IMG/VR virus record: IMGVR_UViG_3300027763_000010
Location: 1 to 38,568 of that record
Length of the DNA stretch: 38,568 bases
Strand: one strand, 5' to 3'
From: a virus
Positions within the stretch are counted from its first letter, which is position 1; each line of letters begins with the position of its first letter. A model generated the notes under the pieces. It saw only the letters and a list, made by a program, of their open reading frames with translations, had not been told where the DNA came from and made no database searches. This document shows, piece by piece, positions 10,629-34,978 of the stretch. The position numbers and the translations under genes are program-made.

Positions 10629-11081
10629 ATGGCTGACGAAGTAAATGAACTACTTGGCAGGGTATCCAGAGAGCGCTATTCGAGCAAGAAAGCGCTCAAA
10701 GATCTGCCGGAGCCATCCTTTCTGGATGATCTTAACTTTATGTACCAATACAACTTCGTCCCGCGATATAACGCACTCGCCGCGCGCATGTTCGGGCCTG
10801 GGCCGTCCTACAGTGATCCTTTAACGAGCCGTGAGCGCTCGCCTGTAGGGTTTATGGGCGACATGCCTACTCAGGCCACCCCCGCCCAGCCAATGGCCCT
10901 GAACGCCTTCGTCTTTAATCCTATGCGCGCCTATCCGCGATATTATACCGCTAGCGAAACCTCCAATGAAGGCGTTAAAGGCCCAAGCAAGTTTATGGAA
11001 GGTTTTGCCTATCTAGGCAATGACGTTCCTTCAGGCTTCATGGATATGACCTCGGGGCGCTATCCAGGCTTTGTAAGATAA
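10629..11081 (+). CDS. Hypothetical protein, last gene of the replication operon (150 aa)
   Basis: The product starts MADEVNELLGRVSRERYSSK and then becomes Pro, Met, Tyr and Phe-rich (FGPGPSYSDP, FVFNPMRAYPRYY, SGFMDMTSGRYPGFVR). The composition suggests an extended or poorly ordered C-terminal part. No family is recognised. AGGG lies upstream of the ATG. It is followed at once by a long hairpin that marks the end of both this operon and the leftward one. Confidence 0.7.
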   Translation: MADEVNELLGRVSRERYSSKKALKDLPEPSFLDDLNFMYQYNFVPRYNALAARMFGPGPSYSDPLTSRERSPVGFMGDMPTQATPAQPMALNAFVFNPMRAYPRYYTASETSNEGVKGPSKFMEGFAYLGNDVPSGFMDMTSGRYPGFVR

Positions 11082-11083
11082 AA

Positions 11084-11113
11084 GCCCTCTAGCTATGGGG
11101 GCAGCTAGAGGGC
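11084..11113 (-). terminator. Strong hairpin terminator between convergent operons
   Basis: A perfect 11-bp inverted repeat, GCCCTCTAGCT at 11084-11094 with AGCTAGAGGGC at 11103-11113, encloses an 8-base loop. On the minus strand it is followed by TTTTATC, so it should terminate the leftward small-gene operon. On the plus strand there is no T-run, but the A-rich side and stem may still stop the 3514-11081 operon. Confidence 0.82.
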
Positions 11114-11208
11114 AGGAGGCTTGCAATACGGCCAAGGGAGGAGGCCATGAGCCACACCCTAACGCATCACGATAAACGCTACAATACCTAAAATTGAGAG
11201 CGTTAAAA

Positions 11209-11394
11209 TCAAAAGAGCATGTCCATGTATTGGACTACTTCCGCTTCCGTCATGTCTTTACCTTTAGACCATTTAGTCCAAAATTGCCATAGCGGCTTGT
11301 TTACAATCTCGCATGGTTCGTCGCGGGGGATATCGGGTATGGTGCACTGGAGCGCCTCATATTGCTCTTGAAAATATTCTTTCATTTTAGACAT
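11209..11394 (-). CDS. Small acidic protein (61 aa), unknown function
   Basis: The product starts MSKMKEYFQEQYEALQCTIP, has a Pro/Cys linker, then a Trp-rich KPLWQFWTKWSKGKD and an acidic helix. No family is known to me. It is the last sizeable gene of the leftward small-gene operon, 9 bases after the DnaA-IV-like gene. GAGG lies about 8 bases before the ATG. Small size, acidity and place in a likely early region fit a host-directed protein, which is inference only. Confidence 0.65.
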   Translation of the reverse strand: MSKMKEYFQEQYEALQCTIPDIPRDEPCEIVNKPLWQFWTKWSKGKDMTEAEVVQYMDMLF

Positions 11395-11403
11395 AGAAGT
11401 ACC

Positions 11404-11661
11404 TCAATGATTGTTGTTACTAATATTACAAATGCCGATTCTTCGTTCTTCATATCTGATTCCACTTATTATGGTTGTATGGTCGCGTTTAAAGACGCGC
11501 GCTATTTGTGTGTAGGTCTTGTCGGTTTCTTTGTGCGCGCGATACATGGCCTTGCGGCGCACTGCTATAACGCGCAGGGTGTTGTTGTAGTCTATGAGGG
11601 TTTCATAACTTAACCCCGCCGCTTTCGCCTCCTCCGATATTATTTGTTTGATTGTTTTCAT
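11404..11661 (-). CDS. Stand-alone DnaA domain-IV-like DNA-binding protein
   Basis: The 85-residue product has, at residues 35-69, RRKAMYRAHKETDKTYTQIA followed by RVFKRDHTTIISGIR. This is the helix-turn-helix and signature (x-RDHTT-I) by which DnaA domain IV recognises DnaA boxes. There is no AAA+ domain and no remnant of one, so it is not a truncated DnaA gene but a small DNA-binding module. It could bind the phage origin, compete with host DnaA, or act as a repressor. Its 5' end overlaps the upstream gene 11603-11866. The GAAGGCGACCG leader supplies a ribosome site. The family match is strong; the role is inferred. Confidence 0.82.
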   Translation of the reverse strand: MKTIKQIISEEAKAAGLSYETLIDYNNTLRVIAVRRKAMYRAHKETDKTYTQIARVFKRDHTTIISGIRYEERRIGICNISNNNH

Positions 11662-11866
11662 CGGTCGCCTTCATATTAAATGCAAAATTAAGAGCGCTTG
11701 CTACTGTCGCCAATGCGCGCAAGTCTGCCTGTTGCACATACAGGCGCATGATCGGCGTTTCTTTAGCGTCGCACTTATAGATGATGACGCAGCTAGTCTT
11801 ATCGGTCTTTATGGGCTTTGCTTTCATGCGCCCAGGATGATCGCAAAATAGGTCAAGGTGTAGCAT
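11603..11866 (-). CDS. Small protein of unknown function (87 aa)
   Basis: The product has CDHPGRMKAKPIKTDKTSCV, then YKCDAKETPIMRLYVQQADL and a Gly/Asn-rich tail. It looks like a small alpha-beta domain. A second start at Met14 (MKAKPIK) is possible. The gene overlaps the coiled-coil gene upstream by 14 bases and the DnaA-IV-like gene downstream by 59 bases. No family is recognised. Confidence 0.65.
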   Translation of the reverse strand: MLHLDLFCDHPGRMKAKPIKTDKTSCVIIYKCDAKETPIMRLYVQQADLRALATVASALNFAFNMKATDENNQTNNIGGGESGGVKL

Positions 11867-12188
11867 TTTTTAATCTTTCTAGTTCTTCTTCTAGTTGACC
11901 ATTCCGCTGAGATAAAGCCATTACAAGATCGTGTAATTCCCTATACCGAAAGTCTTTTCTCTCTTGTAATATTTGATCATTGTATGATCGTTCTAGATCA
12001 GCGTTACGCTCCTCTGCGGCTATTGCGCGGGCTTCTATCTCGATAGGCTTTGAATAATCTTTTTCCATCTCTGCCATGTTATATTTTAGTTGCGCGTTTT
12101 CTTGTTTTACTTTCTTTAACTCGCGCAATAACAAGATAGGCTTGTTAAGTTGGTTTATAACATCATCGATAGGATCAGTTTTTCGCAT
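11853..12188 (-). CDS. Coiled-coil protein, paralogue of the adjacent upstream gene (111 aa)
   Basis: The product is almost entirely a predicted coiled coil. It begins MRKTDPIDDVINQLNKPILL and continues LRELKKVKQENAQLK, then has a long charged middle and ends LSQRNGQLEEELERLKNATP. Both ends match the neighbouring 80-aa protein (MRALRKTNPID... and LSARNGRLEEELKRLRH), so the pair arose by tandem duplication with an insertion or loss in the middle. AAAGG stands before the ATG, which lies within the upstream gene's last codons. It could form homo- or hetero-oligomers with its paralogue; no enzymatic motif is visible. Confidence 0.78.
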   Translation of the reverse strand: MRKTDPIDDVINQLNKPILLLRELKKVKQENAQLKYNMAEMEKDYSKPIEIEARAIAAEERNADLERSYNDQILQERKDFRYRELHDLVMALSQRNGQLEEELERLKNATP

Positions 12189-12417
12189 GACGCAACCTTT
12201 TCAATTCTTCTTCTAGTCTGCCATTACGTGCGGACAGCTTTGTTATTATATCTTCCATCTCATCCACGTTGCCGTATTTGCTGTCCCAATAAGTAAGGAA
12301 CTCTCTTAAATTTGCGTTCTCTTGCCGTAGTTTTTTTAACTCGCGCAATAGTAAAATAAGATCATTTAGTTCATGGATTTTAGTATCTATTGGATTAGTT
12401 TTTCTTAGCGCGCGCAT
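12175..12417 (-). CDS. Short coiled-coil protein, paralogue of the adjacent downstream gene (80 aa)
   Basis: The product has heptad-like Leu spacing in LNDLILLLRELKKLRQENAN and again in LSARNGRLEEELKRLRHAKN, separated by a short aromatic-acidic linker (TYWDSKYGNVDEMED). It is the shorter of two tandem paralogues. AAGGGG stands about 6 bases before the ATG. The gene overlaps the 43-aa gene upstream by 23 bases and its paralogue by 14. Function is unknown; two related coils made side by side suggest a heteromeric helical assembly or a decoy for a host coiled-coil protein. Confidence 0.78.
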   Translation of the reverse strand: MRALRKTNPIDTKIHELNDLILLLRELKKLRQENANLREFLTYWDSKYGNVDEMEDIITKLSARNGRLEEELKRLRHAKN

Positions 12418-12526
12418 GGATTTCCCCTTCTATCAATTCGCGTCTTGTATCGTCACCCTCACCCTGTAACATCAGCTCAAGCGCTGGGGTTGATAGGCGA
12501 TAAAGTAAACATAGAAAGTCATACAT
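12395..12526 (-). CDS. Tiny protein (43 aa), unknown function
   Basis: Starting at ATG 12526, two bases after the stop of the 32-aa membrane gene, this frame encodes MYDFLCLLYRLSTPALELML, then an acidic stretch and a basic end RAKKN. It fills the only room left between two well-supported genes and supplies the ribosome site of the next gene in its own 3' end. No recognisable domain. The tight spacing is the main evidence. Confidence 0.55.
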   Translation of the reverse strand: MYDFLCLLYRLSTPALELMLQGEGDDTRRELIEGEIHARAKKN

Positions 12527-12528
12527 GA

Positions 12529-12627
12529 TCAGCCTCTCTCTATTAGGTAAAGTATGGTTATAATGGCGGCGGGTATAGCTAGGCTAACGCTCGCCGCTAG
12601 CCCTATTAGGTAAAGCGCTTGCTTCAT
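12529..12627 (-). CDS. Tiny single-pass membrane protein (32 aa)
   Basis: The ATG at 12627 overlaps the stop of the upstream gene in an ATGA junction. The 32 residues begin MKQALYLIGLAASVSLAIPA and finish with a second hydrophobic run ending in LYLIERG, so nearly the whole chain is a membrane helix with a short charged C-terminus. Small phage membrane peptides of this kind can act in superinfection exclusion, lysis timing or inhibition of host membrane enzymes, but nothing here shows which. The stop/start coupling supports translation. Confidence 0.65.
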   Translation of the reverse strand: MKQALYLIGLAASVSLAIPAAIITILYLIERG

Positions 12628-12926
12628 ATGTCCGCCTCATATGCTGCGTCCATTTCACAGGCTTCAAGCAAATGCTCATCGTCTATTAGCGCGGCATATA
12701 TCAGTTTATAAAGCCAGTGGTCTTGCGATAGGTTGAGCGCTGGGACGCCCGCTTTAATGCTGTTTAATGTTATCGACGTGATATCGATATCAGTAATCCA
12801 GGGTTCAAAAATCCCTACATCGGGTTCCGCTTTTGCTATGTTATAGTCTACGTCAATCTCGCCCGCGACCATGACGGAATAGTTTTTGATTAGCTCAAGC
12901 TCATCGAAGTAATATGTAAATTTCAT
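12624..12926 (-). CDS. Acidic small protein (100 aa), unknown function
   Basis: With the start at 12926, preceded by AGGGGGA, the product is MKFTYYFDELELIKNYSVMV and continues as an acidic alpha-beta protein (EPDVGIFEPWITDIDITSIT, DDEHLLEACEMDAAYEADI). A longer frame from 12998 would add 24 residues overlapping the previous gene and is less likely. The strong negative charge is reminiscent of DNA-mimic inhibitors, but charge alone is weak evidence. No family is recognised. Confidence 0.7.
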   Translation of the reverse strand: MKFTYYFDELELIKNYSVMVAGEIDVDYNIAKAEPDVGIFEPWITDIDITSITLNSIKAGVPALNLSQDHWLYKLIYAALIDDEHLLEACEMDAAYEADI

Positions 12927-12936
12927 TTTATCCCCC

Positions 12937-13122
12937 TTAGTCGTTTTCAGCCGATCGTTCCCAGTCATACCGCGCGCTATGTTGGCGCTCTGCTTCATTG
13001 TCGTACTCTTCTTGCATAGTGTGCAAGGCGTCGATTAGATGCCACGGCAAGGGCGCGGGTTGATTGTTTAATATCTTTATGAGCGCCTCGACCGCTTCGT
13101 GTTCTAGTGATAGCTCGATCAT
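12937..13122 (-). CDS. Small helical protein (61 aa), unknown function
   Basis: The product MIELSLEHEAVEALIKILNN is followed by QPAPLPWHLIDALHTMQEEY and a charged tail. The first helix (LEHEAVEALIKIL) resembles short phage proteins that start with a VxALIxIL helix and have no known function. Its ATG overlaps the upstream stop by ATGA at 13119-13122, supporting coupled translation. Confidence 0.7.
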   Translation of the reverse strand: MIELSLEHEAVEALIKILNNQPAPLPWHLIDALHTMQEEYDNEAERQHSARYDWERSAEND

Positions 13123-13346
13123 TTTAGCATCCCCTTCAATTCGGCTTTAATTCGGCGCGCATGCTCGCCGCGCCACGTCGAGGCGTTACATAAAAAATAG
13201 CGAACAATTGATTCGCCGCTATCATAACCATAGGGTTGATTAATATCGTCTAAAGTTTGCATGGCGCGAATATATGGTATCGCGCCAAAGTATGGGCTTT
13301 CCCAATATTTTCTAATCTCGCCCGCTATCTCTCTTAGTGTTCTCAT
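13119..13346 (-). CDS. Small basic protein (75 aa), unknown function
   Basis: The product starts MRTLREIAGEIRKYWESPYF and ends in a basic helix (ARRIKAELKGMLK). The N-terminal LREIAxEIxxxW motif is common in small phage proteins of unknown role. It is joined by ATGA overlaps to both neighbours (13343-13346 upstream, 13119-13122 downstream). Confidence 0.72.
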   Translation of the reverse strand: MRTLREIAGEIRKYWESPYFGAIPYIRAMQTLDDINQPYGYDSGESIVRYFLCNASTWRGEHARRIKAELKGMLK

Positions 13347-13606
13347 AATATAACCCCTTCTTGTATTGCGACGCGCATTGCACGTATTGCTTCCGGCGTT
13401 ACCGCGCCGCCATGTTTGACGGAACCTTGCTTAAACCGCATGCCGAACAAGCGACCGCGCTCATATGCCCATTGTTCATTTAGTGTTGAGCCTGCGTCAT
13501 AATTAAACGGTTTACCTTCTCGCGCCTCTTTAACGCCGCGATTGAATAGCGCGGTCTTCATAACCGATTTAAAAGAGACCGTTGACGTTTTGACTTGCTG
13601 AATCAT
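13343..13606 (-). CDS. Small protein with a phage ribosome-modulation-like segment (87 aa)
   Basis: The product has FNRGVKEAREGKPFNYDAGS followed by TLNEQWAYERGRLFGMRF. The G-x-x-A-x-x-G-x-P-x-x-Y...W-x-x-G layout recalls ribosome modulation factor-like small proteins that are common in phages; this is a pattern resemblance, not a firm assignment. The tail is basic. It is coupled by ATGA overlap to the 50-aa gene upstream (13603-13606) and to the next gene downstream. Confidence 0.72.
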   Translation of the reverse strand: MIQQVKTSTVSFKSVMKTALFNRGVKEAREGKPFNYDAGSTLNEQWAYERGRLFGMRFKQGSVKHGGAVTPEAIRAMRVAIQEGVIL

Positions 13607-13755
13607 TGCGAGCGCGCCCCCTTAAATAGCATTTTATGCCTTGGCCCCCAGGATGTGATACAATCATCAGCAACCCACAAATAAAGGCCTGTGAATATTA
13701 AATTCAATTCGTCATTGTAGAATGGCCCATTGTGCCATGCGTCAAAAGTACTCAT
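13603..13755 (-). CDS. Tiny protein (50 aa), unknown function
   Basis: Starting at ATG 13755, which shares one base with the stop of the Cys-rich gene, this frame encodes MSTFDAWHNGPFYNDELNLI followed by a hydrophobic-aromatic middle (FTGLYLWVADD) and a basic end. The stop overlaps the next ATG (ATGA at 13603-13606). It exactly bridges two supported genes, so it is very likely translated. No family is known. Confidence 0.7.
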   Translation of the reverse strand: MSTFDAWHNGPFYNDELNLIFTGLYLWVADDCITSWGPRHKMLFKGARSQ

Positions 13756-14525
13756 TATGCCGCCCTCCCTACTCTGAACCCGTGCAGATTAATCACGATA
13801 TCTTTTTTACTATTGCTGCTATTGCCGGCGCATAGCCCGCACTTGTCGCAAGATGTGCGCGCCCCGTTTTCTTTAGCTGCAGGGCAACCAATTTCATTTG
13901 AGGCTTTAACGTCTTTAGATTTTTTGGCTCTAAATGTGCGCCATCCGCAAGCGCTTGCTAGCAAATGGTCGCTCTCGCTCTCACAGCTAGCCATACATAG
14001 CAGCGCGAAAGCCTGGAAACGCGGGTCTCGCCATTGGTGGCTATAGCCTGTGATTTTTTTAGCTTTTAACGTCGCGGCGCGCCAAATCTGGAACGGTACA
14101 GCAGCAGGGTCGCCATAGGTGCCAAGGCGAAAAGCGCTCCCGTCGAATAGCGCGGGCAATAGCGCGGGATCATAATCCACGCCAGGGCGAGCATAGCGCT
14201 TGCGCTCATAAGCGCCATAAACACTATAAACGCTCTTTGCTACGTCAACGTAGCATTTACCGCCTTTGAATGGTCGCTGGGGGCAATCGCCGCATATGCT
14301 AGCGTCGCGACCGTCTTTTAATGCAGCTATCGGATTGACATCGGCGCGAATAATAAAAGTCTGAACCATTGCGCCGGTCTTAGCATTGGCGCTAGCCACG
14401 CCTATGCGGTTTGCAATAGCCACGATAGGTGCGCCATCGATAGCGCTTGGCCCTTCATATAATATAATGCCGGTAAATTGATTGCGCTTTAACGCAAGGC
14501 GCAAGGCGTTTAAATCTTGTATCAT
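13755..14525 (-). CDS. Cys-rich conserved phage protein (DUF7227-like), possible metal or Fe-S binding
   Basis: The 256-residue protein contains ten cysteines. Cys78 and Cys81 with Cys91 form ICGDCPQRP...GKCYV. Cys177, Cys181 and Cys193 come next, then Cys214 and the tight cluster SCDKCGLC (226, 229, 232), spaced C-x2-C-x2-C. The middle has FRLGTYGDPAAVPFQIW and ITGYSHQW, which I associate with a widespread phage family (DUF7227-like, sometimes beside Gp88-type proteins). A metal or iron-sulfur cluster is likely; catalytic function is unknown. It is the first gene after promoter-like repeat copy 1, with GAAGGGAAAG before the ATG, so it is probably among the first proteins made. Confidence 0.8.
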   Translation of the reverse strand: MIQDLNALRLALKRNQFTGIILYEGPSAIDGAPIVAIANRIGVASANAKTGAMVQTFIIRADVNPIAALKDGRDASICGDCPQRPFKGGKCYVDVAKSVYSVYGAYERKRYARPGVDYDPALLPALFDGSAFRLGTYGDPAAVPFQIWRAATLKAKKITGYSHQWRDPRFQAFALLCMASCESESDHLLASACGWRTFRAKKSKDVKASNEIGCPAAKENGARTSCDKCGLCAGNSSNSKKDIVINLHGFRVGRAA

Positions 14526-14561
14526 TTTACTTTCCCTTCATTAGGACAAATAGACAGTAGG

Positions 14562-14591
14562 ACACTAACACAGTTTTTTTGTTAGTCAATA
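14562..14591 (-). promoter_or_regulatory. Promoter-like repeat, copy 1 (upstream of the Cys-rich gene operon)
   Basis: On the minus strand TTGACT (14589-14584) and TAGTGT (14567-14562) stand 16 bases apart and resemble sigma-70 -35 and -10 boxes. The 26 bases 14566-14591 are an exact copy of 15138-15163. The start codon of the 13755-14525 gene lies about 37 bases further on. The -35 element includes the stop codon of the gene 14582-14725. Confidence 0.75.
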
Positions 14592-14725
14592 GGCTCTATT
14601 ACCAGTGTGCTTCCGCGGTGCAGGTTCGCATAGCGTATGCCGATCTCGATGGCTTCCTCGCGTGTGGCGCATATGCCGCTTTCGACTAGCGCGTGATATT
14701 TATTTAATACTTGGAATGTATACAT
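14582..14725 (-). CDS. Small protein (47 aa), unknown function
   Basis: This frame starts at ATG 14725, three bases beyond the stop of the gene 14729-14956. The product is MYTFQVLNKYHALVESGICA followed by TREEAIEIGIRYANLHRGST and ends in VIEPID. It has the look of a tiny beta-alpha domain in which a helix (REEAIEIGIRYA) packs on two strands; phages carry many such proteins without known function. Its last codons coincide with the -35 element of the downstream promoter repeat. Confidence 0.72.
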   Translation of the reverse strand: MYTFQVLNKYHALVESGICATREEAIEIGIRYANLHRGSTLVIEPID

Positions 14726-14728
14726 GGC

Positions 14729-14956
14729 TTAGTTTCCTAGTTTAACGAGGCCAAAGCAATCGTCATTCAGGCTATGGTAAAGATCAGCATTTTTGAGCGC
14801 CGATAGATAACCCGCGAAAGCCCGCGCGCTCATCTCATCGGGGCGCGCGTTATCGAGATATACTAGGCCCCAACGTGTTCCGTCAGGGCGCTCTTCCTCT
14901 CGCTCTGCACATGCGCGCAAGGTAACAAGTAGAAGCTTTGCAGTGGTTGATAACAT
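14729..14956 (-). CDS. Small protein (75 aa), possible winged-helix-like domain
   Basis: With the start at 14956, eight bases after an AGGAG site, the product is MLSTTAKLLLVTLRACAERE, then GTRWGLVYLDNARP and MSARAFAGYLSALKNADLYH. The helix, turn, helix and short wing-like strands resemble small DNA-binding domains, but the match is loose. A GC-rich hairpin precedes the ribosome site. The stop is followed three bases later by the next ATG. Confidence 0.72.
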   Translation of the reverse strand: MLSTTAKLLLVTLRACAEREEERPDGTRWGLVYLDNARPDEMSARAFAGYLSALKNADLYHSLNDDCFGLVKLGN

Positions 14957-14978
14957 TATCTTGTCTCCTAAGATGAGA

Positions 14979-14996
14979 GGGGCGCGCAAGCGCCCC
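14979..14996 (-). terminator. GC-rich hairpin between the first two leftward early genes
   Basis: GGGGCGC (14979-14985) pairs perfectly with GCGCCCC (14990-14996) around a GCAA/TTGC loop. Read leftward it is followed by TCTCATCTTAGGAGA and then the ATG at 14956, almost the same leader as at 5252-5305 on the plus strand. It may partly terminate or attenuate transcription from promoter repeat copy 2. Confidence 0.7.
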
Positions 14997-15004
14997 GTTT
15001 TGCG

Positions 15005-15103
15005 TCAAGGCCAAAGAACGATTGACCAGTATAAGAATAATCCTTCGTTCTGATTCTTGATTTTATCCGCGACGTAATAGCGCCAGTTGCTTTCGTGATA
15101 CAT
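15005..15103 (-). CDS. Tiny protein (32 aa), first gene after promoter repeat copy 2
   Basis: The product from ATG 15103 is MYHESNWRYYVADKIKNQNE and ends in GLFLYWSIVLWP, with a hydrophobic aromatic C-terminus. AAGGG stands 7 bases upstream, and another ATG two codons earlier (15109) is too close to that site. It lies directly below a promoter-like repeat and directly above a hairpin, as a short leader gene would. It may be a real mini-protein or a leader peptide; no family is recognised. Confidence 0.5.
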   Translation of the reverse strand: MYHESNWRYYVADKIKNQNEGLFLYWSIVLWP

Positions 15104-15133
15104 GGTCATGCCCTTTTGTGTTTTGATGATTAG

Positions 15134-15163
15134 ACTTTAACACAGTTTTTTTGTTAGTCAATA
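15134..15163 (-). promoter_or_regulatory. Promoter-like repeat, copy 2 (start of the leftward early region)
   Basis: On the minus strand TTGACT (15161-15156) and TAAAGT (15139-15134) stand 16 bases apart. Bases 15138-15163 repeat copy 1 exactly, including the seven-base T/A run of the spacer, while the -10 half differs (TAAAGT against TAGTGT). It directs transcription away from the iteron region into 15103 and beyond. Confidence 0.75.
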
Positions 15164-15196
15164 ACTTTTTTGGCAAAAGCAAATTATTTTTGTTTG

Positions 15197-15534
15197 TTGG
15201 TCTTGTTTGGTCATGTTTTGGTTATTGTTTTGGGGTTGAATGACCCAAACGTAAGCGACTAATATTGCGGGCTAAAGTGGCAAGCTTGGTCTTATTGGTC
15301 TTTTTTATATTAACTAGTTAAAAAAAAAATAATGTATACATATATATGTAGGTGTGTATACAATCCTCCATATTTGGCGCGATTTTTTTCCGATGACCAA
15401 AAGACCAAGATGACCATAAGCCCCCTCTCTGCTACGTCATTCTCTCCCCATGTTTACATTCTCCCTGGTAGACGTGTTGACAATCTCCAGGCGAGCACGA
15501 ATGCGACCTTGAAACACATGACCAAAATGACCAA
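15197..15534. repeat. Inverted array of paired TTGGTC / GACCAA iterons
   Basis: Exact TTGGTC occurs at 15197, 15207, 15286 and 15295 and exact GACCAA at 15395, 15403, 15520 and 15529, with near-copies at 15218 (TTGGTT) and 15412 (GACCAT). They come in pairs 8-10 bases apart, about one helical turn, and all left-arm copies point opposite to all right-arm copies, with the AT-rich core between. Several share the longer forms TTGGTCTT and ATGACCAA. Confidence 0.82.
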
Positions 15535-15623
15535 GACATTTGTCGACAATTGAATGACAACTTAGTTTATGTAAACATGTTGACATTGGTTTACATTCAG
15601 TTCAGTTTACATTTGTCTACATT
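15452..15623. repeat. GTTTACATT motif cluster upstream of the terminase genes
   Basis: Exact GTTTACATT occurs at 15452, 15589 and 15605, the reverse complement ATGTAAAC at 15569, and a one-mismatch form GTCTACATT at 15615. Spacing of the last three is 16 and 10 bases. They are distinct from the GACCAA motifs and may be operators for a regulator of late transcription or a second iteron class. Confidence 0.65.
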
Positions 15624-15727
15624 GACTGATTGTATACGGGGGGTCTGGGCCTTGGGGAAGGCGGGAAATCGTGGGCAGGGATTACTCAAACTTTTTTTTA
15701 TTTTAAAAATGTGCTAATAAAGATTCT

Positions 15728-20968: not shown

Positions 20969-23680
20969 ATGGCCTTTATTTATAATCTTAGTGACACATG
21001 GAATGATGCTGCAACTACATGGAACGGCATTAAATTAGCCGTTACCAACACAGGTTCGTCCGCGTCGTCTAATCTGCTTAATTTGACCGTTACAGGGGCC
21101 ACAACGGCCTCTTTTGTCGTTGATAAGAGCGGTAATTTAGCCCTAAACGGCACTGTCAATAAGGTTACAATAACAGCTCCGGCGACGGCAGCTACCCTTA
21201 CCCTAGCTGATAACTCAACATTCATCACTTCTGGGGCGTATAGTTCAACTTTTACCTTCTCCGGCACGACCACGCTGACGTTCCCAACCAGCGGCACGGT
21301 CACAGCGCTTGGTAACACGACAACAGGCTCCGGCGCTATCGTATTGGCGACCAGCCCGTCACTTACAACGCCTGCGCTTGGTATTCCATCAGCAATTACG
21401 CTGACAAATGCGACTGGTCTGCCGATCTCGACAGGTCTGACCGGCACAGGAACAGGAGTTCTTACCGCGCTTGCGGTAAATGTTGGCTCTGCGGGCGCGT
21501 TTGTTACGTTTAATGGCGCGCTTGGCACGCCTTCTAGCGGTAATTTGACTAATTGCACAGGTATTACACCAAGCAATATTGGTGGTCTTGGGACAGGCGT
21601 AGCGACATGGCTTGCAACGCCATCTAGCGCCAATTTAGCGGCTGCGGTCACTGATGAGACTGGTAGCGGATCCTTAGTCTTTGCAACCAGCCCAACACTT
21701 GTCACTCCTGCACTTGGGACGCCATCCTCGGCGACACTGACAAATGCGACGGGATTACCTATTAGCACAGGCGTTAGCGGCCTTGGGACAGGTGTTGCGA
21801 CGTTCTTGGCGACGCCATCATCGGCGAATCTTGCATCGGCTGTCACGGATGAAACGGGATCTGGGCCTCTAGTCTTCGCAAGCAGCCCGACATTTACCTC
21901 ACAAGTCACGTTTGGCACGGCTAGTTCGACACGCGGATCGCTTGTTCTCGCTAATACAACTGCCAATACGGTCACGCTGCAATCCTCGAATAGCACCGCA
22001 GCGGCTTACACGCTGACGTTGCCAGCGGCTGCACCTATTAACGGTTATTATCTTCAGACCGACAATCTTGGTGTCCTATCTTGGGCGGCAGGTGGTGGCG
22101 GTGGTGGTGGCTCTCCTGGCGGTTCAAATACGCAGGTTCAGTTTAATGACGCGGCTACTTTTGGCGGCGCAGCGGCATTTACTTACGACAAAACGACTTA
22201 CACATTAGGTCTTGGTGTCGCGTCTACAACGACCGGCACGTTTAAGCTGTATAATTCAGCCAGCGCTAACGCCACATCTATACAAGCAGGCAATGCTACG
22301 GCAGCGGTTACTTACACGCTGCCAACCGCCGCCCCTGCATCTAATGGCTATGCGCTGACATCAACGACTGCGGGCGTTCTTTCTTGGTCTAATATCGCTG
22401 GTATAACGGTTGGAACGACCACTATTTCCAGCGGCACGTCTGGCCGCGTTCTTTACGATAATGCTGGCGTTGTTGGTGAATATCCAACAAGCGCAACGAC
22501 TGTTGCAAGTAGCGTTGTATTAAGAGACGCTAATGTTAACATAACATCAAATGCTTTTTTTGCAGGAACAACAAGCACAGCGGCTACTGGTGGAACAATA
22601 ACATTAACCGCAGCTTCTACACCAGTTAATGTCGTTACGGGGTCTGGTGGTGAAACATTCACGCTTCCTGACGCAACTACATTGCCATTAGGCGCAATAT
22701 TTTCATTCAATAATAATCAGACTAGCGGAACTATCGTTGTAAAGAATACTAGCGCAACGACAATTGCGACGTTCCAATCGGGTGCTTACGGAACAATTGT
22801 ATTAATTGCTAACGGGACATCTTCGGGAACGTGGGAACCTCATTTCCAAGCGCCAGCTAATGTAAGCTGGTCAACAAATACATTAGATTATCCAGGCTCA
22901 ATTACCTCTGCGACGTGGAACGGTGTTGCGGTTGCTGTAAATCGTGGCGGCACGGGGCTGACCAGTGGCACGTCAGGCGGTGTTTTATACTACAGCGCGA
23001 CTGGCACGCTTGCATCTTCTGCGGCATTAGCGGCTAGTTCTATTGTCCTTGGCGGCGGTGCAGGCGCAGCGCCAGCTACGACCACGACAGGCACGGGTGT
23101 TGTTACGGCTATTGGCAATGCTGTTAATACGGCAGGCGGTCTGTTAGCTCCTGCGGCAGCTCTCACGGCTAATGCTCTTGTGATCGGCGGTGGGTCAGGC
23201 ACTGGCCCATCTACGACAACGACCGGCACAGGTATCCTAACCTTCTTAGGCACGCCATCATCAGCTAACTTAGCCACGGCTGTTACCGACGAGACAGGTT
23301 CAGGCTCTCTGGTGTTTGGCACATCGCCAACACTGAGCAACCCAACCGTTACCAATTACGTTGAGACTTACTACAACATTGGCACGGTCACATCGTCAAC
23401 GACGATCAATCTTGCCAATGGCACGTTCCAGAACTTGACACTGACATCGGCTACGGCTCTAACGGTCACAATGCCGACAGCCACCGCAGGTAAATCTTTC
23501 ATTCTGATCGTTCGTCAGCCTGCCTCTGGCACGGCTACAACGGTGACATTTACCAGCGTCAAATGGCCTGCAAGCACCGCTCCGACGATCACGGCTACAC
23601 TTAGCCGCGCTGACATTATCTCGTTCTTCTCAGACGGCACGAACTGGTATGGCTCGGCTGTCCAAAACTTCGCACCGTAA
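20969..23680 (+). CDS. Large repetitive tail fibre protein
   Basis: The 903-residue protein is rich in Thr, Ser, Ala and Gly and made of short beta repeats. Units of the form TPSSANLAxAVTDETGSGxL followed by VFxTSPTL occur near residues 217-245, 281-309 and 761-789. LTNATGLPISTG occurs twice, near residues 147 and 261. A poly-Gly linker (AGGGGGGGSPGGSN) at about 373-386 separates two halves. The C-terminal 100 residues (TAGKSFILIVRQPAS, RADIISFFSDGTNWY) form the non-repeat knob typical of such fibres. It probably forms a trimeric fibre for host binding. Its stop overlaps the next ATG (TAATG). Confidence 0.88.
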   Translation: MAFIYNLSDTWNDAATTWNGIKLAVTNTGSSASSNLLNLTVTGATTASFVVDKSGNLALNGTVNKVTITAPATAATLTLADNSTFITSGAYSSTFTFSGTTTLTFPTSGTVTALGNTTTGSGAIVLATSPSLTTPALGIPSAITLTNATGLPISTGLTGTGTGVLTALAVNVGSAGAFVTFNGALGTPSSGNLTNCTGITPSNIGGLGTGVATWLATPSSANLAAAVTDETGSGSLVFATSPTLVTPALGTPSSATLTNATGLPISTGVSGLGTGVATFLATPSSANLASAVTDETGSGPLVFASSPTFTSQVTFGTASSTRGSLVLANTTANTVTLQSSNSTAAAYTLTLPAAAPINGYYLQTDNLGVLSWAAGGGGGGGSPGGSNTQVQFNDAATFGGAAAFTYDKTTYTLGLGVASTTTGTFKLYNSASANATSIQAGNATAAVTYTLPTAAPASNGYALTSTTAGVLSWSNIAGITVGTTTISSGTSGRVLYDNAGVVGEYPTSATTVASSVVLRDANVNITSNAFFAGTTSTAATGGTITLTAASTPVNVVTGSGGETFTLPDATTLPLGAIFSFNNNQTSGTIVVKNTSATTIATFQSGAYGTIVLIANGTSSGTWEPHFQAPANVSWSTNTLDYPGSITSATWNGVAVAVNRGGTGLTSGTSGGVLYYSATGTLASSAALAASSIVLGGGAGAAPATTTTGTGVVTAIGNAVNTAGGLLAPAAALTANALVIGGGSGTGPSTTTTGTGILTFLGTPSSANLATAVTDETGSGSLVFGTSPTLSNPTVTNYVETYYNIGTVTSSTTINLANGTFQNLTLTSATALTVTMPTATAGKSFILIVRQPASGTATTVTFTSVKWPASTAPTITATLSRADIISFFSDGTNWYGSAVQNFAP

Positions 23681-26145
23681 TGTTTTCATCTAAAGATCTT
23701 TTCTTCACACCAACATCTGGCGCTTACACGGTCAGTAAAAGTCTACGTTTTCGTTCAAGCGCGACGGCGTATTTAAACAGAACGCCCGCTTCCAATGGAA
23801 ACACGAGTAAATTTACGTTTTCTTGTTGGGTTAAAAGAGGAACTATTGGTTCTGGAATAGCGTCACCTTTGTTTGGGGCTTATAACGGAACTGTAAGTAA
23901 CGCCACTGACGATGCTATTTTAATTAATGGCGATACTTTTACAATATGGAGCAAAGGTGGCGTAACTGGGTCTGGCGGTTGGTATAGAAACACTACAGCC
24001 GTTTTGCGAGATCCAAGTGCTTGGTATCATTTGCAAGTATATTTTGATACTTCGCAGAGCACTGATGCAACAAAATTGCGTATGTATATTAATGGTGTTG
24101 AGCAAACAGCTTATTCGGCAGCGGGAACTATTGCTGGATTTAACTATTTGAATACAACAAATCCGCAAAGAATTGGACAAGATAACGGATCTGGGGGCCC
24201 ATTTTATTTAGATGGCTACTTAGCCGAAGTAAATTTCATTGACGGCCAAGCATTAACGCCAAGCTCATTCGGCGCATACGATACAAACGGCGTCTGGCAA
24301 CCTATTGCTTATACTGGCTCTTACAGCGGAACCAACAGTTTTTATTTAAAGTTTACAACTGTCGGCGCGACATCGGGCAGCAATACAGGCTACGGCCAAG
24401 ACTTTTCTGGTAACGGAAACTACTGGACGACGAATAACTTCGGCACCACGTCCACGGCCACAACATACGACTCGATGCTGGACTCGCCAACTAATGCGGC
24501 TGGCGACATCGGGAATTATCCTGTATTAAACCCGATTAACGGGAACAGCGGGACATTTTCAGCGGCTAACTTACAATTTGTTGGGCCTACTAATTGGTCG
24601 TGCGTTCCATCTACCATATTAATTCCATCTACAGGGAAATGGTTTGTAGCCGCGACGCTTACGGGATCGGCTTCTGGTAATACAAGTGGCGGCGAATACG
24701 CTTATCTTGGTGTAGCACCACCAACTGTATCTAAAACGGCAGCATACAATAGCGCTTTAGGTTTATGGGTCGGCGATACTGGATGGGTGTATAATTTTAG
24801 CGCTACAGGCAGCAATTCAGGTAGCAGTTTCAGTGTTAATAATGAAGTATTGGTTGCTGTAGATAGAGACGCCAACACATACGCAATTTATAAGAATGGG
24901 TCATCGGTAGCTACTGGAACTATTGGAACTACATCTGGCGCAGACTTAATGTTTGTGTATGGGTCGTATTCCTCGTCATTTGGTCAGATGGCTATAAATT
25001 TTGGTCAGCGACCACTAGCTAATGCTGCACCATCCGGCTTCTCTGCGCTAAACACCCAGAATCTGACCACACCGACGATCACCAACGGCGCGCAGAATAT
25101 GGCGGCGGTGACTTATACGGGTAATGGAACGGCGAGCACGTCAATTACGGCGTCAAGCACAAATAGTGGAAATAACCCTAATAGCACAACATTTCAGCCA
25201 GACCTCGTATGGATCAAATCACGGTCGGCTGCGACAAATAATAACTTGTTTGACAGCGTTAGGACAGCGACAAATTATCTTATTTCAAACACTACGGCGG
25301 CTAATGCGACTAATGCCAATACACTAACCGCTTTTAATAGCAATGGGTTTACACTTGGAACAGATGCTTCTTCAATAGGCGTTAACGTAAACGCAGCTAC
25401 TTATGTGGCTTGGGAATGGTTAGCTAATGGTTCTTCAACTACAAGCGGCACCGGCACCGGCGGAATAACTAGCGTAAGCTATTCGGTTAACCAAACTGCC
25501 GGATTTAGTATGGTTTATTACACTGGATCTGGCACAAATGGCACCGTCACACACGGGCTTAGCACCGCTCCTAATTTGATAATAGGCAAAAAACGAAGTT
25601 CTACGGGCAGTTGGCAAGTGTATCATTCTGGTATTAGCGGAATGGCTGGCGGTTATATAATTATTAATGGGACTAGCGGTTTTACTAGCGGCACGTCTAC
25701 AATTTGGAATAACACCGCGCCAAATGGAACTACGTTTAGTTTAGGAACTGACACTGATTTGAACGCCAGCGGCGCAACAAACGTGGCGTATTGTTGGACG
25801 CCTATTAGCGGGTTCAGTTCCTTTGGCAGCTACACGGGCAATGGTTCGGCAGACGGCGTATTTGTATACACGGGATTTAGACCTCGTTATTTATTTATGA
25901 AGAGAACTGACAGCAGCGGAACAAGTTGGTGGCAAGTCGATACTTCTTGCAATCCTTATAATGTCGCCAGTGGCGGTTTAACATTAAATACATCAGACGC
26001 CGAAAGTTCCGGCAACACTTGGTGCGATTTCTTATCAAATGGATTTAAAATAAGAACCTCATCAGTAGGCGTAAACGCTTCTGGCGGCACTTATATATAC
26101 GCAGCCTTTGCCGAAAATCCCTTTAAAATCAGTAGGGCACGATAA
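23680..26145 (+). CDS. Tail protein with LamG-like lectin, SPRY-like and DUF7483-like regions
   Basis: The 821-residue protein has a concanavalin-type LamG region at about residues 20-215 (FTFSCWVKRG, WYHLQVYFDT, RMYINGVEQ, YLDGYLAEVNFIDGQALTPS). A SPRY-like segment follows at about 310-455 (LGLWVGDTGWVYNF, VAVDRDANTYAIYKNG, AINFGQRPLANAAP). The C-terminal part has repeated TYVAWEWLANG and NVAYCWTPISGFSSFGSYTG and SGGTYIYAAFAENPFK segments seen in phage host-binding proteins annotated DUF7483. It likely binds surface glycans. Base composition is more AT-rich than its neighbours (many ATT, AAT and TTA codons), suggesting acquisition from elsewhere. Confidence 0.85.
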   Translation: MFSSKDLFFTPTSGAYTVSKSLRFRSSATAYLNRTPASNGNTSKFTFSCWVKRGTIGSGIASPLFGAYNGTVSNATDDAILINGDTFTIWSKGGVTGSGGWYRNTTAVLRDPSAWYHLQVYFDTSQSTDATKLRMYINGVEQTAYSAAGTIAGFNYLNTTNPQRIGQDNGSGGPFYLDGYLAEVNFIDGQALTPSSFGAYDTNGVWQPIAYTGSYSGTNSFYLKFTTVGATSGSNTGYGQDFSGNGNYWTTNNFGTTSTATTYDSMLDSPTNAAGDIGNYPVLNPINGNSGTFSAANLQFVGPTNWSCVPSTILIPSTGKWFVAATLTGSASGNTSGGEYAYLGVAPPTVSKTAAYNSALGLWVGDTGWVYNFSATGSNSGSSFSVNNEVLVAVDRDANTYAIYKNGSSVATGTIGTTSGADLMFVYGSYSSSFGQMAINFGQRPLANAAPSGFSALNTQNLTTPTITNGAQNMAAVTYTGNGTASTSITASSTNSGNNPNSTTFQPDLVWIKSRSAATNNNLFDSVRTATNYLISNTTAANATNANTLTAFNSNGFTLGTDASSIGVNVNAATYVAWEWLANGSSTTSGTGTGGITSVSYSVNQTAGFSMVYYTGSGTNGTVTHGLSTAPNLIIGKKRSSTGSWQVYHSGISGMAGGYIIINGTSGFTSGTSTIWNNTAPNGTTFSLGTDTDLNASGATNVAYCWTPISGFSSFGSYTGNGSADGVFVYTGFRPRYLFMKRTDSSGTSWWQVDTSCNPYNVASGGLTLNTSDAESSGNTWCDFLSNGFKIRTSSVGVNASGGTYIYAAFAENPFKISRAR

Positions 26146-32769: not shown

Positions 32770-33969
32770 ATGGCTGTTGTAACGCCCACCGCAAAAGCTC
32801 AGTTTATTGACGCCGCAGGCGTCCCGCTTGCAGGCGGATTTCTCTATACTTATGAGGCTGGCACCACCACGCCGCAGGCGACTTATACGGACTCGACCGC
32901 CGCCACGGCTAATAGCAATCCGATTGTGTTGGACTCACGCGGCGAAGCAAATATCTGGCTGTCGTCATCTAACTATAAGTTCAAACTTACCGACGCAAAC
33001 GGCACTGAGATCTGGACGGTCGATAATATCGCCGCACCTTCCACGGCCCTGTCGCCGGTCTTTACCAGTAACGTCACGATCTCGGCTAATACGTCTGGCC
33101 CTGCGCTTCTCGTTACGCAGACAGGCGCAGGCGCAGCGATCAGAGTTCAAGACAGCGCGGATCCTGACGCATCGCCCTTCGTTGTTGATACGGCAGGTCA
33201 GGTAGGTATTGGCACTGCAACGCCAGGAAATGCGTTAGACATCGCAGGCGGCACGTTTCAAATCTCATCGGCTGGCGGAACGTCTCGAACGACCATATCG
33301 GCTGATTCGACCGACTCAATTTTTGCTGCGTCTGACGACCGTAATTTTACGGTTAAAACTAACGCCGCAACACGCCTTACAATTAACTCTACAAATGCTA
33401 CGTCAACCGTTCCTGTCGTGCTTCCGGCTAATCCAACAACGTCGCTTCAAGCGGCGACTAAAGGATACGTCGATCTAGGCTCACCCGCTGGTATCGTCGC
33501 ACCTTTTGCTGGCACATCAGCGCCGTCAGGCTGGTTGGCTTGTAATGGTGCCGCTATATCGCGTGTCGATTATGCAACCCTCTTTGCCGCTATCGGCACG
33601 ACATGGGGCGTGGGCAACGGATCAACGACGTTCAACGTGCCAGATCTTCGCGGCACATTTTTACGCGGCACAGGCACTAACGGCACTTATGGCACCGCTG
33701 TCGGTCAGGCTGTCGGCACTTATGCAGCGGATACATATCTGAACCATAGCCATACCGCGACGGATTCAGGTCATACACATGGGTATTGGTATCCTACAGC
33801 TACTGGCGCGCAATCTGGTAGCAGTACACAATGTTATATTCAAGCTACACCTACAAATGATAAAGTAACAGCCACAGGTAACGCCAATATCACCGTAGCC
33901 ACATCTACGACCGGCGACACGGAAACAAAGCCAAAGAACTATGGCGTGCTATACATCATCAAGACCTAG
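32770..33969 (+). CDS. Tail fibre with phage tail collar domain
   Basis: The 399-residue protein has a standard fibre base (MAVVTPTAKAQFIDAAGVPL, GGFLYTYEAGTTTPQATYTD), a repetitive middle (VDTAGQVGIGTATPGNALDI), a PTTSLQAATKGYVD linker near residue 225, and a C-terminal tail collar domain (APFAGTSAPSGWLACNGAAI, TTFNVPDLRGTFLRGTG). The C-terminal tip has His repeats (NHSHTATDSGHTHGYW) that may bind metal, as in T4 gp12-like collars. It begins one base after the stop of the previous gene. Confidence 0.88.
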   Translation: MAVVTPTAKAQFIDAAGVPLAGGFLYTYEAGTTTPQATYTDSTAATANSNPIVLDSRGEANIWLSSSNYKFKLTDANGTEIWTVDNIAAPSTALSPVFTSNVTISANTSGPALLVTQTGAGAAIRVQDSADPDASPFVVDTAGQVGIGTATPGNALDIAGGTFQISSAGGTSRTTISADSTDSIFAASDDRNFTVKTNAATRLTINSTNATSTVPVVLPANPTTSLQAATKGYVDLGSPAGIVAPFAGTSAPSGWLACNGAAISRVDYATLFAAIGTTWGVGNGSTTFNVPDLRGTFLRGTGTNGTYGTAVGQAVGTYAADTYLNHSHTATDSGHTHGYWYPTATGAQSGSSTQCYIQATPTNDKVTATGNANITVATSTTGDTETKPKNYGVLYIIKT

Positions 33970-33986
33970 TATTATAGTGAGGCATT

Positions 33987-34973
33987 ATGGATCCGTTCAC
34001 ACTAGCCCTTTTAGGAAGCACCGCAGCAAGCGCGCTTAGTAGCGGGGCTGGCTATGCGGCTTCACAACGTGCGGCTGGCACACAGGCCCAAGCCGCTCAA
34101 CAAAGCGGCATGTTGGGCTACATCGCTCAACAGCAAGCGCTTGAAGAGGCTCGTCGTAGAACGCAACAGGGCGTAGACGCAAGCCGTGAGTTTTACGGCA
34201 AAGGCCGTGAGGATCTTCTAGCTCAAGGCCGCACAGGCGCTGAGACAGCCAGAGAATTTTACGGCAAAGGTGTAGCGGCTCAAGAGCCTTATACGACCGC
34301 AGGCGCAGGCGCGACAAACCAACTTGCACAACTGTATGGCGTAGGCGGCGACTATACCCGTATGCCGACGCTCGAAGAACTTCAGATGGATCCTGGCTAT
34401 GCGTTTCGCACCAAGATGGGCGAACAGGCCATGCTCAATATGGCGCGGGCAGGCGGCACGGCTGGATCTGGCGGCGCACTAAAAGCTAGTATTCGTTACG
34501 GTCAAGAAGCTGGCAGTCAAGAGTATCAGAACGCATACGCGCGATTTATGGAGAACCGTCTTAGGGCTACGCAGGGTCTTGAAGGATTAGCCGGTCGCGG
34601 CGCAAGCGCAGCGGGAACAGTATCGCAGCTCGCTGGCACAATGGGCGGTCAGCTATCTGGCAATCAATTTAATCTTGGCTCTAACCTCGGCACGATGGCA
34701 ACTAATGCGGGCAACACAGTTGCAGGCGCTTACACAGGCGCTATTCCAACGATGGCGGGGCTCACGTCGGCTAACCCATACGGGCAGGCGATGGAGAATG
34801 TCGGGCAGGCTAGAGCTTCTGGTTATGTCGGCGGCGCATCAGCGTTGGGGCAAGCTCTGCAAGGCCCAGCTAATGCTATGCTTGCGTATAACATGATGGA
34901 TCGGTTCTCGCCTCAAGGGCCTTCTGGATCATATCAATTTGGCGGGCAAAACGTCCCTTATTTTAATAGGTGA
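33987..34973 (+). CDS. Ejection (internal virion) protein 1
   Basis: The 328-residue protein is rich in Ala, Gly and Gln. It begins with a weakly hydrophobic MDPFTLALLGSTAASALSSG and then a coiled coil (AQAAQQSGMLGYIAQQQALE) with two SREFYGKGREDLLAQGRTGA-like repeats. The rest is Gly-rich and amphipathic (GGQLSGNQFNLGSNLGTMAT). It is first of three genes in the place of the P22 ejection proteins, which are expelled into the envelope to let DNA in. GTGAGG precedes the ATG. Confidence 0.83.
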   Translation: MDPFTLALLGSTAASALSSGAGYAASQRAAGTQAQAAQQSGMLGYIAQQQALEEARRRTQQGVDASREFYGKGREDLLAQGRTGAETAREFYGKGVAAQEPYTTAGAGATNQLAQLYGVGGDYTRMPTLEELQMDPGYAFRTKMGEQAMLNMARAGGTAGSGGALKASIRYGQEAGSQEYQNAYARFMENRLRATQGLEGLAGRGASAAGTVSQLAGTMGGQLSGNQFNLGSNLGTMATNAGNTVAGAYTGAIPTMAGLTSANPYGQAMENVGQARASGYVGGASALGQALQGPANAMLAYNMMDRFSPQGPSGSYQFGGQNVPYFNR

Positions 34974-34978
34974 TATAA

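Follow-up and report, generated by a model that had tools for sequence, protein, structure and literature searches.

A Repeated Promoter-like Header and a Constant Distal Core in a Putative Two-part Early Operon of a P22-like Virus

The viral record IMGVR_UViG_3300027763_000010 from IMG/VR (38,568 bases, analyzed over its whole length and called the window below) contains a leftward block of 16 small genes, g1–g16, between positions 15103 and 11209 (Table 1). We interpret this block as a two-part early operon, in which a constant distal core is preceded by a promoter-proximal exchange cassette (g1–g7) that acts on the host or its defenses, and we assign this reading a probability of about 60%. 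Its parts differ in strength. The architecture itself (real genes, operon limits, constant core, swapped proximal genes, and a repeated header) is very likely correct and early expression of the block is likely, whereas a host-directed role of the cassette, for which we argue by analogy, is only slightly favored.

Architecture of the Leftward Operon

The unit extends from a promoter-like site (15161–15134) to an intrinsic terminator (11113–11084) with a 12-bp stem and a folding energy of −22.4 kcal/mol, which none of 200 shuffled sequences equaled. An earlier sequence-only reading of this DNA had counted at least 14 small leftward genes between 15103 and 11209; we found 16, including all five mini-genes that it had singled out (32, 47, 50, 32, and 43 amino acids (aa)), at the coordinates given there. 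That reading had described most of the genes as linked by ATGA or similar stop/start overlaps. Overlaps do occur at nine of the 15 junctions, but only five are of the tight stop/start type (four 4-base ATGA-type overlaps and one 1-base TAATG), the other four being longer (14, 14, 23, and 59 nt). The remaining six junctions are gaps of 2, 3, 9, 10, 48, and 56 nt.

Codon-based comparison with relatives gave pooled ratios of nonsynonymous to synonymous substitution rates (dN/dS) from 0.03 to 0.26 for 14 of the 16 genes, and by this measure these genes are under measurable purifying selection. The minimum belongs to g10, which encodes a hydrophobic protein of 32 residues, and the maximum to g13. 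The value for g5 derives from one pair and that for g12 from two near-identical pairs; g1 and g2 offered no usable pair, and relatives of both were found in the same locus, L102 (53% and 91%, respectively). That many of the mini-open reading frames (mini-ORFs) are not genes is therefore very improbable. Several comprise only 32–50 codons, and g1 and g2 lie outside the reach of the selection comparison, but the low ratios run through all 14 testable genes, purine-rich stretches resembling ribosome sites precede nearly all starts from g1 to g16, and the mini-ORFs are either conserved gene by gene or cleanly replaced in relatives.

Between g1 and g2 lies a GC-rich perfect hairpin (14979–14996, GGGGCGC arms), which may play a part in processing or attenuation; 23 of 200 shuffles of the surrounding 66-nt stretch were as stable, so that its stability does not clearly exceed that of shuffles.

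A Constant Core and a Variable Proximal Half

Gene content was tabulated for 13 close relatives with a complete block (from the small terminase gene, terS, to g16), two of which, L037 and L041, are identical over the compared terS stretch. Every relative has the distal genes g8, g9, g10, g11, g14, g15, and g16 (91 of 91 gene-by-relative cells), whereas the promoter-proximal genes g1–g7 fill only 27 of 91 cells. Because the division into core and proximal half was chosen after seeing the table, the associated p value (2e-27) only describes the contrast. The coiled-coil genes g12 and g13 differ in copy number among the relatives; most relatives that keep these tandem paralogues have a single copy of differing similarity. 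The high gene turnover expected by the sequence-only reading thus applies to g1–g7 and does not extend to the core.

The constant core, with dN/dS near 0.1 and a protein corresponding to DnaA domain IV (g15), resembles replication or regulation machinery more than optional anti-host weapons, and it probably serves the start of replication or a regulatory function.

Nor is the block the sole hypervariable region of the genome, as turnover also affects the tail and ejection genes. In relatives with near-identical terminase genes, tail, fiber, or ejection-type genes (20969–26145 and 32770–38382) are strongly different or absent. When the window was compared with its nearest full-length relative, G001 (98.7% identity in the large terminase, terL), six of the 16 block genes were absent, versus four of 29 other genes, so that against this one sister genome the block shows no significant excess of variability (p = 0.13).

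The Repeated Header and Its Exchange Slots

In the variable half, a 24-mer, TTGACTAACAAAAAAACTGTGTTA, occurs twice without mismatch (15161–15138 and 14589–14566; none expected from 100 shuffles). This header joins a −35-like hexamer, TTGACT, to an imperfect palindrome, CTAACA-n9-TGTTA. The first copy, P1, was also recovered by a promoter-like scan, matching nine of 12 consensus bases. Across the collected loci we found 31 distinct header variants when one mismatch per arm was allowed, two of them perfect palindromes with 9-bp arms; the conservation of the outer arms follows in part from the search pattern, which demands them. Only one match occurred in 138 control loci (1.11 Mb). Among 23 loci, the window included, 15 carry two copies, four carry one, and four carry none.

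The two header copies delimit two positions of exchange. Between them lies module A, which holds differing sets of mini-genes. Slot B, after the last header, is occupied in most loci by g4 and in L038 and L102 by a protein of the GP88 family. In L034 and L037 it holds a 180-aa protein whose match to the DNA polymerase III β clamp is confined to the central domain. A β-clamp-type protein of 180 aa also replaces g4 in L042, where no header was recognized, and L033 has no known gene listed in slot B. For the 60 pairs of loci that differ in slot B, mean identity is near chance at 30–120 nt upstream (0.27–0.29), rises to 0.90–0.94 in the header arms, falls to 0.47–0.56 in the leader, and is again at chance from 64 nt on (0.24–0.28). 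This arrangement, a conserved promoter over unconserved genes, is one trait of a shared-header early anti-defense regulon. L031 and L042 carry a gene inserted between the g10 and g11 homologues, and the copy scanned, that of L042, belongs to the phage DNA-methyltransferase family phrog_757.

The Slot B Protein g4 and Its Occasional Neighbor g7

The Cys-rich protein noted in the sequence-only reading is g4, a member of phrog_2554; of 50,697 phage records, 148 contain this family, and most of these are Mycobacterium, Klebsiella, and Gordonia phages. Seven cysteines (C77, C80, C90, C213, C225, C228, and C231 in alignment numbering) are invariant in all 54 aligned homologues. The predicted structure of g4 is confident (predicted local distance difference test score, pLDDT, 92.4), and Foldseek found no match to it in the PDB at E 1e-3. 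Although g4 stays below the Pfam gathering score of DUF7227 (14.9 versus 27 bits), 50 of the 54 homologues match this family weakly (best E 2.8e-5), the g4 profile aligns with the DUF7227 protein of phage DSL-LC05 (hhalign E 3.8e-10), and a Foldseek search of BFVD with the g4 fold retrieved DUF7227 (2.9e-4) and GP88 (1.1e-3). The g4 profile did not match an alignment of four GP88 sequences. We conclude that g4 is a distant relative of DUF7227, by profile and fold, and of GP88, by fold alone. DUF7227 (PF23872) shares with g4 a similar N-terminal Cys triad and C-terminal Cys tetrad, whereas the aligned members of GP88 (PF17338) have a similar triad and lack the tetrad.

The best VIA match of g4 was archaeal TYW1 (Z 3.8, root mean square deviation 5.7, 138 aligned residues), and several of the top matches were radical S-adenosylmethionine (SAM) proteins, all of them weak. 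The canonical radical SAM motif is CxxxCxxC. The spacing in g4 is CxxC-x9-C and departs from it, and a radical-SAM-like fold of the modeled protein is a lead only. A search of PubMed Central, whose coverage excludes subscription journals, returned no functional paper on GP88 or DUF7227.

The cassette protein g7 matches phrog_13953 (1.6e-34 over residues 2–75), and its best matches are proteins of Gordonia and Mycobacterium phages with 64–68% identity. In three phages the protein encoded next to the g7 homologue belongs to one of the families above: GP88 in IronMan, DUF7227 in DSL-LC05, and the g4 type in JSwag. Overall, a g4- or GP88-type neighbor accompanies g7 in 19 of 27 viral loci; seven loci have none (L017, L019, L021, L022, L024, L025, and L026), and L020 is too short to tell. 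Among the genes scanned, no such neighbor was found in DumpTruck, LittleFella, prophiGD54-2, or Herbertwm, which are Gordonia or Mycobacterium phages. These phages, together with the presence of g7 in only six of 80 g4 loci, rule out an obligatory pair, and judged from gene neighborhoods the association of g4 and g7 is loose but real. Structure comparison of g7 gave a best VIA Z of 5.5, under the level that is meaningful for helical proteins.

The DnaA-like Protein g15 and the Adjoining Repeat Region

The sequence-only reading had also pointed to a DnaA-IV-like protein. Indeed, g15 matches nearly the whole of Bac_DnaA_C (PF08299) with 45.2 bits (gathering cutoff 31.5), and its DHTT motif aligns with the solved DnaA chain 1l8q/2hcb. 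We take this chain to be an Aquifex-type DnaA and the motif to be that of the recognition helix. In contrast to DnaA, g15 is a free-standing phage protein of 85 aa without the AAA+ or any other DnaA domain. The literature in PubMed Central, which does not extend to subscription journals, yielded no functional paper on a phage-encoded DnaA-like protein.

Upstream of g1, an AT-rich stretch of 618 bases (15110–15727) contains eight of the genome's 31 TTGGTC hexamers, arranged as four direct-repeat pairs, and eight of its 15 TGTNNACA palindromes. Neither the TTGGTC count nor the T(T/G)TNNACA count of this stretch was reached in 300 shuffles of it. The TTGGTC array, counted over 700 bases, is found with 4–10 copies in 12 of 14 close relatives (L038 has two copies and L065 one) and is absent (0–1 copies) from the distant relatives listed. 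Judged by these repeats, the stretch is a candidate replication origin or operator region. Exact DnaA boxes, TTATNCACA, occur five times in the window, scattered and never within 15110–15727; with up to one mismatch, TTATNCACA was found 39 times versus 30.6 expected, and is thus not enriched in the window. The record behind L065 (72,555 bases) has two large-terminase matches and is possibly a joined or repeated assembly.

Other Block Proteins and the Source Genome

Two assignments of block proteins were rejected. A likeness of g6 to ribosome modulation factor (RMF), suggested by its sequence pattern, was not borne out by any Pfam match to RMF at E up to 1 or by any PDB match. A YabA-like replication-control coiled coil for g12 and g13 reached only E 0.15–0.26, which we take as generic coiled-coil similarity.

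The coat, portal, and terminase genes of the window are P22-like and resemble those of Podoviridae isolate ctNMl277 (MW202483). On one side the block is met by converging rightward replication genes, and on the other side the small terminase gene diverges from it; in a freshwater-type podophage of the P22-like kind, the block probably constitutes the left early operon. Next to the terminator, a rightward ORF of 150 aa (10629–11081) has no Pfam or PHROG match and is missing from two near relatives. Contigs from Rhodoferax metagenome bins, L200 and L202, have a terL of 73–77% identity and a g4 relative (47–48%) between primase and small terminase, which is a hint that the hosts are Burkholderiales, probably from freshwater.

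Table 1. Positions of the operon genes and control elements in the window
Feature	Position	Strand	Evidence
P1, header copy 1 (TTGACTAACAAAAAAACTGTGTTA; −35 TTGACT and imperfect palindrome CTAACA-n9-TGTTA)	15138..15161	-	Exact repeat; promoter-like scan match
P2, second copy of the header, immediately upstream of g4	14566..14589	-	Exact repeat; position relative to genes
g1, 32 aa, module A; alternative ATG at 15109	15005..15103	-	Relative in L102 (53%); absent from 13/13 complete relatives
g2, 75 aa, module A	14729..14956	-	Relative in L102 (91%); absent from 13/13 complete relatives
g3, 47 aa, module A	14582..14725	-	dN/dS 0.08; in 5/13 relatives
g4, 256 aa, Cys-rich, phrog_2554, distant DUF7227 relative, slot B	13755..14525	-	dN/dS 0.08
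g5, 50 aa	13603..13755	-	In 3/13 relatives; dN/dS from one pair
g6, 87 aa, N(D/E)QWAYERGR-type small protein	13343..13606	-	In 6/13 relatives
g7, 75 aa, phrog_13953, four-helix, common to Gordonia and Mycobacterium phages	13119..13346	-	Profile match
g8, 61 aa, core	12937..13122	-	In 13/13 relatives
g9, 100 aa, core, phrog_18992 (E 1.5e-8)	12624..12926	-	In 13/13 relatives
g10, 32 aa, core, hydrophobic, apparently one membrane helix	12529..12627	-	In 13/13 relatives; dN/dS 0.03
g11, 43 aa, core	12395..12526	-	In 13/13 relatives
g12, 80 aa, coiled-coil protein paralogous to g13	12175..12417	-	Copy number varies in relatives
g13, 111 aa, coiled-coil protein paralogous to g12	11853..12188	-	Copy number varies in relatives
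g14, 87 aa, core	11603..11866	-	In 13/13 relatives
g15, 85 aa, DnaA domain IV alone (Bac_DnaA_C), core	11404..11661	-	Pfam PF08299, 45.2 bits; alignment with solved DnaA
g16, 61 aa, core, last gene	11209..11394	-	In 13/13 relatives
Intrinsic terminator closing the unit	11084..11113	-	Stem and folding energy versus shuffles
AT-rich intergenic stretch, a candidate origin or operator region with eight TGTNNACA palindromes and with TTGGTC in four direct-repeat pairs	15110..15727	.	Repeat counts versus shuffles

Discussion

In the mechanism that we propose, the cassette g1–g7 has two slots, and at the head of each stands a copy (P1 or P2) of one σ70-like promoter whose operator is an imperfect palindrome. 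The host RNA polymerase would read both promoters early, and a phage or host factor that binds the palindrome may tune the two together. New mini-genes would enter behind the conserved header and thereby gain early expression, and the near-identity of the headers may double as a recombination joint. Early in infection, the cassette genes would act on the host or its defenses, whereas the core (g8–g11 and g14–g16, including g15) would serve the start of replication or a regulatory function.

The closest precedent for the gene content is the region 143–171 of mycobacteriophage Wildcat, described in PMC7474061 as a leftward, early, mosaic run of small genes of which 12 of 29 (41%) are toxic. Like the present block, it is a mosaic of small genes without assigned function that share intergenic motifs. 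The Wildcat genes, however, are mostly 80–100 bp apart, and no single shared promoter was found there (PMC7474061), whereas the block described here forms one operon of overlapping genes, in which the distal core is constant and the promoter header occurs in two near-identical copies. For the header, the nearest parallel is found in archaeal viruses, whose early anti-defense genes, according to PMC11065993, combine a highly conserved promoter or regulatory sequence with unconserved genes. The likeness lies in a conserved promoter over swapped genes; the archaeal regulons use TATA/B-recognition element (BRE) promoters and mostly comprise single genes (PMC11065993), in contrast to the σ70-like promoter with a palindromic operator that appears to head multigene slots in the podophage. 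The start-associated sequences (SAS) of cluster K mycobacteriophages are likewise short repeated elements, some of them containing inverted repeats, just upstream of some small nonstructural genes that belong to differing families, but their distance to the start codon is 3–7 bp and the role proposed for them is in translation (PMC3203893). Our header, in contrast, is located ∼60 bp upstream of the start and contains a promoter hexamer. Short shared boundary sequences have been proposed earlier as recombination points (PMC3029335). A literature search for hypervariable early anti-defense regions gave no match.

The case for a host-directed variable half is built on such analogies: the shared header, as in the archaeal regulons (PMC11065993); a GP88 protein between toxic genes; and a methyltransferase-family gene in the exchange pool. 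The GP88 protein in question is gp90 of phage LHTSCC, which is 86% identical to gp89 of IronMan; in IronMan the position beside the GP88 gene is occupied by the g7 homologue. In LHTSCC, gp90 lies between two toxic genes, gp89 with a toxicity index of 4 and gp91 with one of 5, and is itself not in the table of toxic genes (PMC7474061).

Several observations weigh against our interpretation. The −10 elements of the headers are weak, P2 is missing from the list of promoter-like sites, and the region has no excess of such sites (six versus 9.0 expected from shuffles). With the pattern used, no header was recognized in four of the 23 loci. The identity profiles are ungapped and so show a conserved header, not an exchange mechanism, and recombination is indistinguishable in them from other routes. 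A PADLOC scan of 10 proteins gave no convincing match (best E 0.013), in a system that models defense and not counter-defense. Some of the swapped genes are DNA-metabolism-like, namely the one-domain β clamp and the phrog_757 methyltransferase, and conservation of the core makes an anti-host role for the constant half unlikely.

The DNA-metabolism-like genes lead to the chief rival, an early operon for DNA metabolism and replication that would take in the entire block, with small accessory factors that serve the phage's own replication and have no targets in the host or its defenses. The Bac_DnaA_C domain of g15, the β-clamp domain-2 protein that takes the place of g4 in slot B of relatives, the phrog_757 methyltransferase inserted beside g10, and the repeat-dense candidate origin adjoining P1 all fit such an operon. 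Essential replication factors, however, would hardly be dispensable between phages with ∼98% identical terL, as the variable genes are, and most of these genes have no DNA-metabolism match, so that we consider this explanation unlikely for the block as a whole. The palindromic operators in the two promoters could instead belong to a temperate phage and mark a lytic unit under the control of a repressor, its gene set being defined by lysogeny control (immunity or superinfection control). In DSL-LC05, which shares g7, a gene annotated as “repressor protein C” is located ∼1 kb downstream of the g7 homologue. Among the scanned genes of the window, which did not include every ORF, there was neither an integrase nor a CI-type repressor, and we regard lysogeny control as improbable.

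On the reading as a two-part operon with a host-directed cassette, the variable half, whose genes are exchanged between viruses downstream of a repeated promoter sequence, is a good place to look for host-disarming genes. The sequence-only reading had named the whole block as the likeliest anti-host site of the genome; by analogy this is plausible for the variable half, but the constant half is an unlikely candidate, and the tail and ejection genes are hypervariable as well. A bolder extension, which we consider unlikely, would make the TTGACTAACA-n9-TGTTA header the tag of an early anti-host regulon in this freshwater podophage group, with any gene behind it serving counter-defense or takeover. 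The slot B proteins (phrog_2554, GP88, and the one-domain β clamp) would then be interchangeable and have a common purpose, and the seven-Cys phrog_2554/DUF7227/GP88 superfamily would be a new metal-cluster enzyme, perhaps radical-SAM-like, that acts early in infection to modify a macromolecule of the host or the phage and is often encoded beside g7.

The constant core and exchangeable slots, found in phages with near-identical terminases, offer a clean natural comparison, and g10 (32 aa, dN/dS 0.03), g7, and the g4/DUF7227/GP88 group are marked as specific targets. If our reading is true, a short DNA header would serve as a tag by which host-directed genes can be searched for across a common freshwater phage group, and it would carry the approach that found new anti-defense genes in archaeal viruses into the viruses of bacteria.

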